Positions 4,834 through 57,833 of a DNA stretch of 64,000 bases are shown here, one piece after another; within the stretch, counting starts at the first letter, position 1; the number at the start of each line of letters is the position of its first letter. The notes beneath the pieces were generated by a model. The model had not been told where the DNA came from, searched no databases, and was given only the letters and a program-made list of their open reading frames with translations. The stretch is from Saccharopolyspora rhizosphaerae (GTDB taxonomy: Bacteria; Actinomycetota; Actinomycetes; Mycobacteriales; Pseudonocardiaceae). A program made the translations under genes and the position numbers. Location of the stretch: positions 248,001 through 312,000 of the forward strand of contig NZ_RSAA01000017.1 in the NCBI RefSeq assembly GCF_003931915.1, written 5' to 3'.

Positions 4834-5151
4834 CAGCCACGGGAGCTCCAGGAGGAACCTGCTCGTGGTGGAGGACGTTCCCGGCGGGAACCTCCCCCAC
4901 CACGCCACACCTGGAGCGGTGCGGAGGTCCAGGAGCGGAATCCAGCACCGCCGGAGGACACAGCGGGCTCGCGACGGCAGCCGCTCCTCCAGGTGCGGGA
5001 CTCACCTAGCACCGCCGCAGGTCCTGAGCGGCTTCGTGGCGACCACGCCAAGACGCCCCCGTGGTCGACGTGCTCGAGGAGCGGCGCACGGAGACCACGA
5101 CCCGCTCAGGTTCTGCTCCCGCACCGCCCAGCAGAGCTAGCCAGAACACCC
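4834..5151. other. Intergenic region holding repeat copy R1
   Basis: No gene is credible here. The stretch after the GNAT stop has short palindromic GC-rich segments (for example GTTCCCGGCGGGAAC at about 4880), and the second half is the dispersed repeat described separately. Confidence 0.7.
4974..5136 (+). repeat. Dispersed intergenic repeat, copy R1
   Basis: The core reads GGGACTCA (4997-5004), then GCACCGCCGCAGG, CTGAGCGGCTTCGTGGCGA and, about 60 bp later, GGAGCGGCGCACGGAG followed by TTCTGCTCCCGCACCGCC. The same blocks, in the same order, recur inverted at 24.7-24.85 kb (R2) and more diverged at 17.15-17.3 kb (R3) and 31.0-31.2 kb (R4). CCTGAGCGG near the left and CCGCTCAGG near the right form an inverted pair, so a transcript could fold. 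It is intergenic, with no sign of a transposase. Confidence 0.75.
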
Positions 5152-6834
5152 TCAGAGGTGCGCGAGCTGCTGGCGGAGGGTGTCCAGGCCCATGGCGCCC
5201 ATCTTGAGGGCGTCGGTGTGGAAGGCCTTGACGTCGAAGTCCGCGCCGTGGCGCTGCTGGGCCTCGTCCCGCGCGGCGCGCCAGAGGCGTTCGCCGAGCT
5301 TGTAGGACGGGGCCTGGCCAGGCCAGCCCAGGTAGCGGTCGATCTCGTCGCGGACCTGCGCCGGATCGGTGATGGTCCGGCTGAGCATGAACTCCAGCCC
5401 GAGCTCCGGCGTCCACCTCTCCCCCTCGTGGAACCCGGTGCCGGCCGGGATCTCCAGCTCCAGGTGCATGCCGATGTCGACGACCACGCGCGCGGCGCGG
5501 AACAGCTGGTCGTTGAGCATGCCGAGCAGGTCGCCGTCGTCGGAGAGGTAGCCGAGCTCGCGCATCAGCCGTTCCGCGTAGAGCGCCCAGCCCTCACCGT
5601 GCCCGGAGACGAAGCAGACCAGCCGCTGGAACTTGTTGAGCCGCTCGGCTTCGTGCACCGAGGTCGCGATCTGCAGGTGGTGCCCCGGAACACCCTCGTG
5701 GTACACAGTGGACACTTCGCGCCAGGTCGGGAAGTCCTGCCGGTCAGCGGGGACCGACCACCACATCCGGCCCGGACGGGAGAAGTCGTCGGTGGGACCG
5801 GTGTAGTAAGCGCCGACTCCGCCGCCGGGCGGGGCGATCTTGCACTCCAGCTGCATCAGCCGATCGGGGATCTCGAAGTGCGTCCCGCGCAGGTCCGCCA
5901 GCGCCTGGTCGGACAGCCGCTGCATCCACCGCTCGAACTCCCGCTGGCCGTGCACCCGGTAGCGCTCGTCGGCGTCGAGCGCGGCAGCGGCCTCGGCCAG
6001 CGTCGCGCCCGGCTTGATCCGGTTCGCGACCTCCTTCATCTCCGCCTCGATGGCGGAGAACTCCTGCCAGCCCCACTCGTAGGCCTCGCGGAGGTCCAGC
6101 TTCGCGCCGGTGAAGAAGCGCGACCAGAGCCGGTAGCGCTCCTCGCCGACCGCGTCCTTCTCCGGGGCCTTGGGCAGCAGCTCGCCGCGCAGGAAGTCGG
6201 CCAGCCCGGCGTAAGCCTCGGCGGCCGACTCCGCGGCAGTCTCCAGCTCCCCGCGCAACGAGTCGTCGACGCTCTCGGCGCGCCCCACCATCTCGGCGAA
6301 GAACGACTCGCCACCGCTGCGCCCGGACCACGTGTCGCACTGCTCAGCGACCTTGCGGACCTGCCGCGCCGCCGCGACATCACCGTTGGCCGCCGCTTCG
6401 GTCAGCCCGGCGCGCAGCCCCAGCACCGCCTGCGGCATCGCCGAGAGCCGTCGGGCGATGGTCCGCCAGTCCTCGGCCGAACCGGTCGGCATGAGGTCGA
6501 AGACCTGGCGCAACTCCTGCGGCGGGCTGGCGATCACGTTGAGCGAGGACATGTCCGCGCCGATCTCGTGCAGTTCGAGGTCGAGCCCGACGCGCTCGGT
6601 GAACACCGCCTGGGCGACCCGCTCGGAGTCGTCGGTGGGTTCCGCCTCGCGCATCGCGGCCAGGCTCCTGGCGGCGAGGTCGGCGCGCGCCCGGTGCCCG
6701 TCCGGCGAGTAGTCGGTCAGTTCCTCGTCCCCACCGGGCAGGCCCAGGTAGGTGCTCGCAACAGGATCGAGCGCCGCCAGCTCGTCGACGAACCGGTCGC
6801 TGATCGCGTGTACGCCGTTGTGGTCAACTCCCAT
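5152..6834 (-). CDS. DUF885 family protein, putative metallopeptidase
   Basis: A 560-residue protein with the DUF885 hallmark YHEGVPGHHLQIATSVHEAE (about residue 370), an HExxxxHH arrangement that resembles a zinc site, plus the upstream DFPTWREVSTVYHEG and the later GHGEGWALYAERLMRELGYL block typical of the family. Members are predicted peptidases, but activity is shown for few. No signal peptide is seen at the N-terminus (MGVDHNGVHAISDRFVDELA), so it is probably cytoplasmic. The ATG at 6834 is supported by TAGCGT 7 nt upstream, a leaderless-type promoter. Divergent from the lppM-like gene (113 bp gap). Downstream lies repeat R1. Confidence 0.85.
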   Translation of the reverse strand: MGVDHNGVHAISDRFVDELAALDPVASTYLGLPGGDEELTDYSPDGHRARADLAARSLAAMREAEPTDDSERVAQAVFTERVGLDLELHEIGADMSSLNVIASPPQELRQVFDLMPTGSAEDWRTIARRLSAMPQAVLGLRAGLTEAAANGDVAAARQVRKVAEQCDTWSGRSGGESFFAEMVGRAESVDDSLRGELETAAESAAEAYAGLADFLRGELLPKAPEKDAVGEERYRLWSRFFTGAKLDLREAYEWGWQEFSAIEAEMKEVANRIKPGATLAEAAAALDADERYRVHGQREFERWMQRLSDQALADLRGTHFEIPDRLMQLECKIAPPGGGVGAYYTGPTDDFSRPGRMWWSVPADRQDFPTWREVSTVYHEGVPGHHLQIATSVHEAERLNKFQRLVCFVSGHGEGWALYAERLMRELGYLSDDGDLLGMLNDQLFRAARVVVDIGMHLELEIPAGTGFHEGERWTPELGLEFMLSRTITDPAQVRDEIDRYLGWPGQAPSYKLGERLWRAARDEAQQRHGADFDVKAFHTDALKMGAMGLDTLRQQLAHL

Positions 6835-11462: not shown

Positions 11463-13451
<1,989 letters not shown>

Positions 13452-13749
13452 GGCAGCACCCGGAACCGTTCCGCACGGCGGTGGCAGCTGAGTCCCACGC
13501 CGGGAACAGCGGCCCGCCGCACGTGCTCGGGGCCTGGCGATCCCCGGGTCGGGTGTCAGCTCTCCGGCGGAAGATCTCCACCTGACCGTGTGATCCTGAT
13601 CTCGCGTCCGAGTTGTAACGTTCATCCGGCATGTGGATCTACCTGCGCCGACCCGGGTCGAGAAGATCACCTGCGGTCGACCCTACGGCCCGTGATCTCG
13701 CCTGGTCAGGGCCGGAGGAGCCGGGGTTTGTGGAACTATTGGGAGCACA
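13452..13749. other. Intergenic region with a partial repeat copy (R5)
   Basis: No gene is credible between pknL and the mannosyltransferase gene. At about 13474-13500 the minus strand reads GTGGGACTCAGCTGCCACCG, which matches the left end of repeats R1/R2 for roughly 20 bp; the rest of the element is not recognisable. Confidence 0.5.
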
Positions 13750-15381: not shown

Positions 15382-17578
<2,197 letters not shown>

Positions 17579-24200: not shown

Positions 24201-24679
24201 GCCGCGGACACAACTCGCCCGACGGGCCGGAGGACATCGACGCCGCCTTCGCGGAGATCGTCGCCGACCTGGAACGCGACACCAAGTTCGGCAGGTGGCC
24301 GGGCGAGGACGAGCCCGCGAAGACCTCGTCGGAGGACGACCAGGAGCCGCGCCCCGCGGAGTCCACCGCCCCGCAGCCGGCGGTCGAGCCGCCCGCCGAG
24401 CAGGGCCCCCGCGACTGGACACCGGCCGAGGAGGAGGAAGAGCACTTCGTCCCGCCCGAACCACCGCCGCTGCCGGTGCCGCGCCCGGCGACGTTCCTGG
24501 GCGTCGGCGTCATCGTGCTCGGCGTGCTGGTGCTGCTCGTCCCCGGCCTGGCAGGCATCGCGGCGACCGTGAAGCTCCCGCTGGGCCTGGTGCTGATCAG
24601 CGCCGGGATCGGCGTGCTGCTCTTCCGCCTGCGCCGCACGCCGCCGGAAGACCCGGACGACGACGGCGCCCAGGTCTGA
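24197..24679 (+). CDS. Conserved small membrane protein
   Basis: A 160-residue protein: an acidic, proline-rich cytoplasmic N-terminal half (many DE and PP pairs) and two hydrophobic segments near the C-terminus (FLGVGVIVLGVLVLLVPGLA and LPLGLVLISAGIGVLLFRL). Family is not recognised beyond an actinobacterial two-helix membrane protein. The ATG overlaps the hydrolase stop (ATGA), so the two are translationally coupled and may work together at the membrane. No catalytic motif is visible. Confidence 0.75.
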   Translation: MSRGHNSPDGPEDIDAAFAEIVADLERDTKFGRWPGEDEPAKTSSEDDQEPRPAESTAPQPAVEPPAEQGPRDWTPAEEEEEHFVPPEPPPLPVPRPATFLGVGVIVLGVLVLLVPGLAGIAATVKLPLGLVLISAGIGVLLFRLRRTPPEDPDDDGAQV

Positions 24680-24698
24680 GCCTCCTGCTGGAAGACCT

Positions 24699-24853
24699 GC
24701 TGTGCGTGGCGGTGCGGGTAGCAGAACCGGGGCGTGGCTCCGTGCGCCACTCCTGATGTACGCCAGGTGCACGGCGTCGCGGCGTACTCGCCACGAAGCC
24801 GCTCAGAACCTGCGGCGGTGCAAGCTGAGTCCCACCTGAAGCGGCGGCTGCCG
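24699..24853 (-). repeat. Dispersed intergenic repeat, copy R2
   Basis: The minus strand carries GGCAGCCGCCGCTTCAGGTG, GGGACTCAGCTTGCACCGCC, GCAGGTTCTGAGCGGCTTCG, TGGCGAGTACGCC, then GTGGCGCACGGAG and GGTTCTGCTACCCGCACCGCC, collinear with R1. In both copies one frame spells LAPPQVLSGFVATTPRR or LAPPQVLSGFVASTPRR, showing how close they are. It lies between two convergent genes with no transposase. Confidence 0.75.
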
Positions 24854-24874
24854 CCGCTTGACGAGCGACAGGAG

Positions 24875-31019: not shown

Positions 31020-31210
31020 AGGGCCTGTCGAACCTCGCGAGAACTTCGCCCCCGAAGCCCCCTCGAACCTCGCGAGAACTTCGACCCCTGAAGATCCCCG
31101 TCGAACTTCGCGCGAAGCCGACGTGGGGACCCGGGTGGCAACGCCGCAGGTCGTGAGCGGGTTCGGGGAGAGCGCGCCGGGACGCGCGTTCGACACGGCT
31201 CGCGGAGCGG
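31020..31210 (+). repeat. Dispersed intergenic repeat, copy R4, with CTCGCGAG module
   Basis: Two near-identical units TCGAACCTCGCGAGAACTTCG (about 31027 and 31061), each followed by CCC and GAAG, then a diverged TCGAACTTCGCGCGAAG, then GACGTGGGGACC and GCCGCAGGTCGTGAGCGGG, GAGAGCGCGCC and GGAGCGGCGTGCTGAGG. The palindromic units precede the core exactly as in R3. The remaining part of the 30.9-31.3 kb gap has no gene. Confidence 0.65.
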
Positions 31211-31300
31211 CGTGCTGAGGTCCGCCGAGCTGCTGGGCTCTCGGTTTGCGGGAGTTCCTGGTACCGGCACCGCCTGTTTGGAACGGTCCTCCGCAGGCGG

Positions 31301-57563: not shown

Positions 57564-57833
57564 CCCCGCTCCCACCCGAAGACACCTCGCGCGACATCAC
57601 CGCCACCCCCCACTCGCAGCCAACCCGCCTCACACCCCGGCATGTCTCCACGCCGTGGGTGCCGACACTTCGCCCGACATGTCGTTCGCCCACGCAATGA
57701 CATCGCGCGCGGGATGTCCGTCGGCCCGACACGCGGAGCATCGCGCTGGGTTTCGGAGCGGCGCATGGCGTCCGCGGAGCCGGCGAGGTCCTGCTACCTG
57801 CCACCGGCGCTCAGAGCCTTTCCGCGCAGCTCC
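57564..57833. other. Intergenic region with short palindromes
   Basis: Contains GACATC/GATGTC and CATGTC units, including the perfect palindrome CGACATGTCG at about 57676, and ACATCGCGCGCGGGATGT near 57700. No gene is seen; an operator cluster is possible. Confidence 0.4.

Follow-up and report, generated by a model that had tools for sequence, protein, structure and literature searches.

A CTAG-flanked, probably MITE-like repeat with a covarying interior hairpin beside stop codons in Pseudonocardiaceae

The IS5 family has a habit of targeting CTAG or YTAR sequences, and IS5-family MITEs are a known class. MITEs usually have passive, decaying interiors. The intergenic repeat described here resembles the IS5-family MITEs in being short, without a transposase and flanked by CTAG, and in having terminal inverted repeats, with ends like those of some IS5-type (DUF4096) elements of the genus. 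It differs from them in that the model of its core misses those insertion sequences (ISs), and in that its interior is a covarying fold across genera. Correia elements and ERIC/RU (RU: PMC2759123) are likewise mobile, palindromic and intergenic, with lengths of about 100-170 bp; they belong to other phyla, and their sequences were compared with the repeat through Rfam scans. REP/BIME sequences (PMC2817692) share with it more than 100 copies per genome and the form of extragenic palindromes. QMITE1 and QMITE2 of Coxiella burnetii are also among its nearest counterparts, and differ in being from one species; the excerpted description (PMC5896051) reports no family-wide covariation.

Copies in the window, the genome and the family

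The window is the whole stretch of 64,000 nucleotides that was analysed, and its coordinates are contig positions minus 248000. An nhmmer profile built from 30 genome copies recovered all copies of the dispersed repeat that the initial annotation had placed near 24.8, 17.2, 31.1 and 13.5 kb, in both orientations. Copy R1 occupies 4962..5151 on the plus strand (nhmmer 4962-5139, model 6-183, E 6e-42), with a left hairpin module at about 4970-4984 and the core hairpin at 5000-5134 (cmsearch, 102.7 bits). Its right end extends up to the TGA stop codon (5152..5154) of a 560-aa minus-strand gene; in the direction of that gene, the right end reads TGA directly followed by GGGTGTTC. The left terminal repeat of R1 is no longer recognisable. 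A separate hairpin at 4864..4904 (blastn self-inverted match, 88%) lies in the interval between the stop of the plus-strand gene and R1, and is probably a native terminator distinct from R1; by eye, a hairpin is present in this gap in many relatives too.

Copy R2 occupies 24680..24862 on the minus strand (nhmmer 24698-24862, E 3e-40; cmsearch 24702-24830, 112.2 bits) and is flanked by two convergent genes, its right end adjoining the stop codon at 24677-24679. R1 and R2 form an inverted pair (89% over 61 nt, 78% over 170 nt), and the common peptide that they had been said to spell in a random frame was confirmed by eye on both sequences. A degenerate minus-strand copy at 17135..17251 (nhmmer E 3e-11; cmsearch 17137-17249, 45.2 bits, E 2.6e-7) shares with R2 and R1 the strong support of the covariance model. 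That model gives weak scores to the remaining three copies, which are thus regarded as decayed or partial: a degenerate plus-strand copy at 31126..31274 with convergent genes on either side (nhmmer E 7e-12; 18.7 bits, E 0.06), a minus-strand fragment of the left half at 13434..13520 (nhmmer model 15-101, E 8.7e-5; 13.9 bits, E 0.56), and a plus-strand fragment of the right third at 57751..57817 (nhmmer model 116-181, E 4.7e-6; 17.3 bits, E 0.12). The last is a sixth window copy, absent from the earlier list.

The genome of origin (G000) comprises 5.82 Mb in 34 contigs, and its genus, Saccharopolyspora, includes antibiotic producers. Exact matches to a 34-base core were found in four named Saccharopolyspora records. 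A blastn search of G000 gave at least 58 matches among those listed, with 40 of 290 first-look candidates scored. Copies were then counted in a sample of 1,171,996 bases, consisting of contigs C7 (which holds the window) and C32 in full and positions 1-260000 of C10, with elements kept at E 1e-5 or better and genes called by a simple codon-score script rather than a standard gene finder. The sample holds 62 elements, 53 bearing the core and nine with the left module only. C32 and C10 had been picked partly for their many copies in the initial blastn listing; this choice barely altered the density, because C7 alone has 16 core-bearing copies in 345,543 bases, beside 23 in C32 and 14 in C10. Extrapolation gives about 260 core copies for G000, in keeping with the very many copies per genome predicted by the initial annotation and far beyond a handful. 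The view that copies lie only in gaps was borne out as well, since none of the 53 core-bearing midpoints falls inside a gene called by the script. Their contexts are convergent in 27 cases, tandem in 24, divergent in one, and a contig edge in one.

The left module, a hairpin and GGTG...CACC stem of about 65 nt, is also seen repeated in tandem beside full copies (C10:22680-23057, C32:77081-77235 and C32:68041-68165 of G000). A second palindromic motif, roughly TCGAACTTCGCGMGAAGTTCGA, was noticed by eye beside several G000 copies (C7:155736, C7:279126, C10:41697 and C10:94816).

With the covariance model, the element was detected in 79 of the 297 family genomes searched (Pseudonocardiaceae, taken from the NCBI lineage of the genus) and in 15 of 46 tool-labelled genera. 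Among 18 chosen genomes, with 150 candidates scored in each, matches at E 1e-6 or better numbered 100 in G034, 88 in G115, 58 in G082, 41 in G033 and 35 in G090, and four genomes had one match each. A draw of 396 genomes across the phylum, searched with stricter filters and eight candidates scored per genome, gave matches at E 1e-4 in the own genome alone. No Rfam 15 family reached its gathering threshold in the window. When 20 loci with other copies were scanned at E up to 2, three matches came up (mir-512, HOXB13-AS1_2 and sR28), all below gathering. Phage and plasmid searches gave no useful match to the repeat. A literature search, which left most subscription journals outside, found no description recognisable as this repeat. 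For S. erythraea, one study (PMC3610266) reports 190 putative intergenic ncRNAs.

Element ends, CTAG sites and stop codons

A further 100 loci were fetched. In well-preserved relatives, the whole element measures 190-212 bp between two CTAG sites and has inverted ends (five complete copies, all with CTAG intact on both sides), a size that agrees with the original description of copies without a transposase. The ends of well-preserved copies are inverted repeats of the form CTAG-N4-TGTTnnn; locus L219, for instance, has CTAG-GAGCTGTTGAGGAATGCGG as its left and CTAG-AAGCTGTTGAGGAATTGC as its right end, and L285, an example from the genus, has the left end CTAG-GGTCTGTTTCATAAGCGG. The right-end pattern TAR-N3-5-TGYY was present in 26 of 119 cases (0 and 0 in two control windows) and the left-end pattern in 20 of 93 (1 and 0 in control windows). 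Both ends were recognisable in 11 loci; most copies are too old to display both.

Occupied sites differ between species at the loci compared, as is expected of a mobile element. R1 itself is present only in G000 among 22 genus members, which were compared over 600 nt behind the stop. On the opposite side of the R1 gap, beside the stop of the other gene, a separate copy is found in G009 (whole) and G015 (cut), and the profile matched no copy at the R1 site in the remaining 19 genomes. R2 likewise occurs only in G000 among 21 genomes with the locus, and G003 has a different element there in the opposite orientation. Two pairs of filled and empty sites fit insertion into CTAG, as judged by comparing the sequences: G007 has GGGT-CTAG-CCGTTCG where G016 has GGGT-CTAG-[element]-CCAG-CCGTTCG, and G015 has CCG-CTAG-GCCG where G009 has CCG-CTAA-[element]-CCAG-GCCG. 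In each pair, at least one CTAG copy is altered by one base, and in both the CTAG served as stop codon for the gene upstream. The second site is also occupied in G000, by a copy that points the other way and is probably an independent insertion. Thus a short element with terminal inverted repeats, a target site duplication and a high copy number, as in MITEs, were all found. Against the CTAG-insertion reading counts one site in G001 with a 9-bp duplication at a non-CTAG position. In a blind scan for duplications, 4 of the 54 in a first set reached 9 or more, whereas 100 rounds of shuffled pairs averaged 0.73 such cases and never had more than 3; one of these four is far from its stop. A second set gave 2 of 67 at a score of 7 or more against a mean of 1.3, which is near chance.

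Profile matches were obtained in 95 of the 100 fetched loci, and in 67 of these the right end lies near the stop of a confidently called gene. The distance of the stop from the model end is exactly 13 nt in 22 of the 67 and 12-14 nt in 34. These 34 stops comprise 21 TAG, 10 TGA and 3 TAA, while the background share of TAG in called genes is 117 of 1045 (11.2%) in G000 and 81 of 700 (11.6%) in relatives. TGA at the modal position may be a later change of TAG through TAA. In the 1.17-Mb G000 sample, the CTAG counts are 23 in coding sequence, 44 at stop codons and 168 in intergenic sequence. Copies abut stops in part because CTAG is rare in genes except as part of TAG stop codons, and this scarcity would be a simple, DNA-level reason why a transposon seems to read stop codons. 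Target choice alone is insufficient for the association, since more CTAG sites lie between genes than at stops (168 vs 44).

Of 153 elements in five sets, 133 have at least one end with a gene stop in the interval from 60 nt outside to 12 nt inside it. A stop adjoins the right end only in 80, the left end only in 23, both ends in 30 and neither in 20. A fixed polarity towards the stop was considered and rejected, as this count shows a bias only. The right-end preference goes beyond what CTAG target choice explains. Intergenic CTAG sites without an element are convergent in 36 cases, tandem in 96 and divergent in 62; elements are few in divergent gaps despite these 62 sites, and insertions there have therefore been lost or were never made.

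The interior fold

The core is a hairpin of about 100 nt flanked by two direct repeats, usually GCACCGCC. The internal inverted pair noted in the initial annotation is real and forms only part of this longer, imperfect hairpin. Two structure-blind MAFFT alignments were used to assess its pairing. For the first, 35 diverse copies were kept of 45 picked from 139 (ten were dropped for long inserts or poor fit), and two-sided changes are seen at 21 of 33 pairs. The second contains 45 copies from 15 genera, namely 29 of 30 loci fetched from 14 other genera and 16 Saccharopolyspora copies; 93.4% of its cells pair, a measure on which the structure is favoured over slid versions because it was drawn on members, and 25 of 33 pairs vary at both positions. 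Two-sided changes fill 296 cells of this alignment, where shuffles have 92; its covariation score of 0.538 compares with 0.173 for shuffled alignments and at most 0.101 for slid structures. None of 500 shuffles reached any of the five measures in either alignment. RNAalifold on 30 close copies proposed a different structure, in which one of 33 pairs has a two-sided change; this result was uninformative because close copies vary too little, and the diverse copies settled the fold. At shared sites (G009/G016 and G015/G016/G000), the stems differ in sequence between species yet still pair, by eye.

On the evidence of these alignments, it is the pairing of the core hairpin, not its letters, that is preserved by compensatory change, which is unusual for a MITE-like element. 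Compensating changes above both shuffled and slid controls are what a structured element, as first suggested, predicts, and such pairing-preserving change opposes a shared decayed coding gene as the source of the similarity. That the folded interior persists throughout a bacterial family, in an element still jumping beside stops, would point to selection on the structure of a parasite.

In the R1 plus orientation, G.U cells outnumber A.C cells by 98 to 18; counted by pairs, the excess is 16 vs 4 (sign test, p 0.012), with 12 vs 2 in other genera (p 0.013) and 11 vs 4 in Saccharopolyspora alone (p 0.12). These mismatches suggest that the core hairpin likely acts single-stranded, as RNA or single-stranded DNA, and that the acting strand is probably antisense to the gene whose stop adjoins the right end. 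The claim about the strand depends on mismatch types alone, because the computed folding energy is equal on both strands and does not separate them.

An extra small hairpin at the base of the main stem was seen by eye in L252:761-911, L044, L297 and L285. The two GCACCGCC direct repeats are, again by eye, altered alike in L337 and L348, and just one of them is altered in L349, L350 and L352. At one site, G015 is without the entire hairpin, exactly between two GGCGGTGCGGG direct repeats that are present in G009.

Mobilisers and competing explanations

Three of the 52 scanned loci that carry IS5-type transposase domains (PF13340, PF13586) show a matching end pair. These elements were found in G005 and G006 only, are about 935 bp long, and end in CTAG-GGTCTGTTTCAG and CTAG-GGCCTGTTTCAGAAG or close variants. 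Their sequences share with the repeat both the type of end and the CTAG site. The likeness is confined to the ends, since the core model does not match the three (L359, L360, L375). Neither PF13340 nor PF13586 was matched in the own genome, G002, G009, G016 or G090, all of which carry the element, so the mobiliser there is missing or of another type. A search of local sequence for terminal repeats that might bound an autonomous copy returned one MITE copy only. The domain PF01797 (Y1) was matched in 8 of 23 genomes, including one match in the own genome, from a draw that left out G015 and G016; RVT_1 was matched in 7 of 22.

We consider it likely that the repeat is a MITE-like transposable element, non-autonomous and about 190-210 bp long, that inserts at CTAG and has a folded interior. 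An IS5-type transposase may move it in trans, as suggested by some IS5-type elements of the genus that share its ends and its CTAG site. Insertion would go into CTAG, which in high-GC coding DNA is mainly found as TAG stops; insertions into promoters would be lost and, together with the rarity of CTAG, most copies would remain just past stops. The fold could work single-stranded, probably as RNA within transcripts running across the ends of convergent genes, and might serve as an insulator or resemble a terminator and so allow insertions to be tolerated. The fuller reading, that CTAG insertion at stops installs a conserved, transposon-borne structured RNA at gene 3' ends across Pseudonocardiaceae, is tentative. 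If true, a common module for RNA control or insulation would come and go by transposition at many genes per genome.

Two other readings of the interior have to be weighed against this one. The repeat could be a functional 3'-end RNA module (a terminator, insulator or RNA stabiliser), domesticated, spread by transposition and selected after insertion. Pairing kept across 15 genera speaks for such a module, as do stems at shared sites that pair despite different sequences (by eye) and the gene contexts, with 27 of the 52 copies that have a gene on each side in convergent and one in a divergent setting against 36 convergent, 96 tandem and 62 divergent intergenic CTAG sites without an element. However, occupancy is not common to the species at the two window sites, native hairpins persist beside inserted copies (by eye), and orientation towards the stop is biased, not fixed; we regard domestication as possible and rather doubtful. 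At the other extreme, an ordinary decaying MITE would have a hairpin that acts only as a DNA-level cruciform, with no role as a single strand. MITEs are often palindromic, and the equal folding energy of the two strands agrees with this, whereas the excess of G.U over A.C (98 vs 18 cells, 16 vs 4 pairs) and compensatory change in an interior outside the terminal repeat do not, and a cruciform alone seems somewhat unlikely.

Different modes of spread fare worse. Movement of REP/BIME-type repeats by a REP-associated Y1 tyrosine transposase (RAYT) would suit a high-copy, extragenic, palindromic sequence at gene 3' ends that serves as an insertion site for other ISs. Yet the element is far longer than REP units are generally taken to be and differs in its ends, and PF01797 was unmatched in copy-rich G001, G007 and G009, so that strict REP membership is unsupported and this origin very improbable. 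Of the original REP/MITE-like or structured label, the MITE anatomy and the fold kept by compensatory change survive. Even less credit is due to a SINE-like retroelement whose reverse transcription is primed at the stop codon. It would fit the sharp right end at stops, the structured interior, and four cases with apparent duplications of 8-12 bp, one set of these exceeding its shuffled control. Inverted ends and CTAG on both sides contradict it, and RVT_1 was unmatched in G000, G001, G007, G009 and G015, with one match in element-rich G016. Among the four duplications, one is the end of another IS (G001 near 126.6 kb), and those in G016 and L236 contain CTAG plus extra matching taken for chance; for the fourth, ATCAGCTGA in G001, no explanation was reached. 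A stop-codon-specific target with 9-12 bp duplications and target-primed reverse transcription was abandoned; the searches for reverse transcriptases and for Y1 gave little.

Under the preferred, MITE-like reading, the many natural insertions and the matched empty sites in sister species would provide a test system for effects of 3'-end hairpins on expression.

The repeat is itself a site of insertion. In four of 30 loci from the PF13340 search (L363, L379, L364 and L380) it is interrupted by an IS, both halves being matched in three and one half in L380; in L363, the halves lie at 1222-1331 and 2287-2321. IS5-type insertion sequences were seen inside repeat copies of G003 and G033, in a conserved arm between CTGAG and GTTCCGC. 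Some ISs target REP sequences in a comparable way. Another IS, with TCCCAGTTTTAG ends, was observed in L373, L388 and the syntenic region of G001 near 126.6 kb, and a short palindromic sequence with TCCCAGTTTTAG ends lies beside one copy of the repeat.
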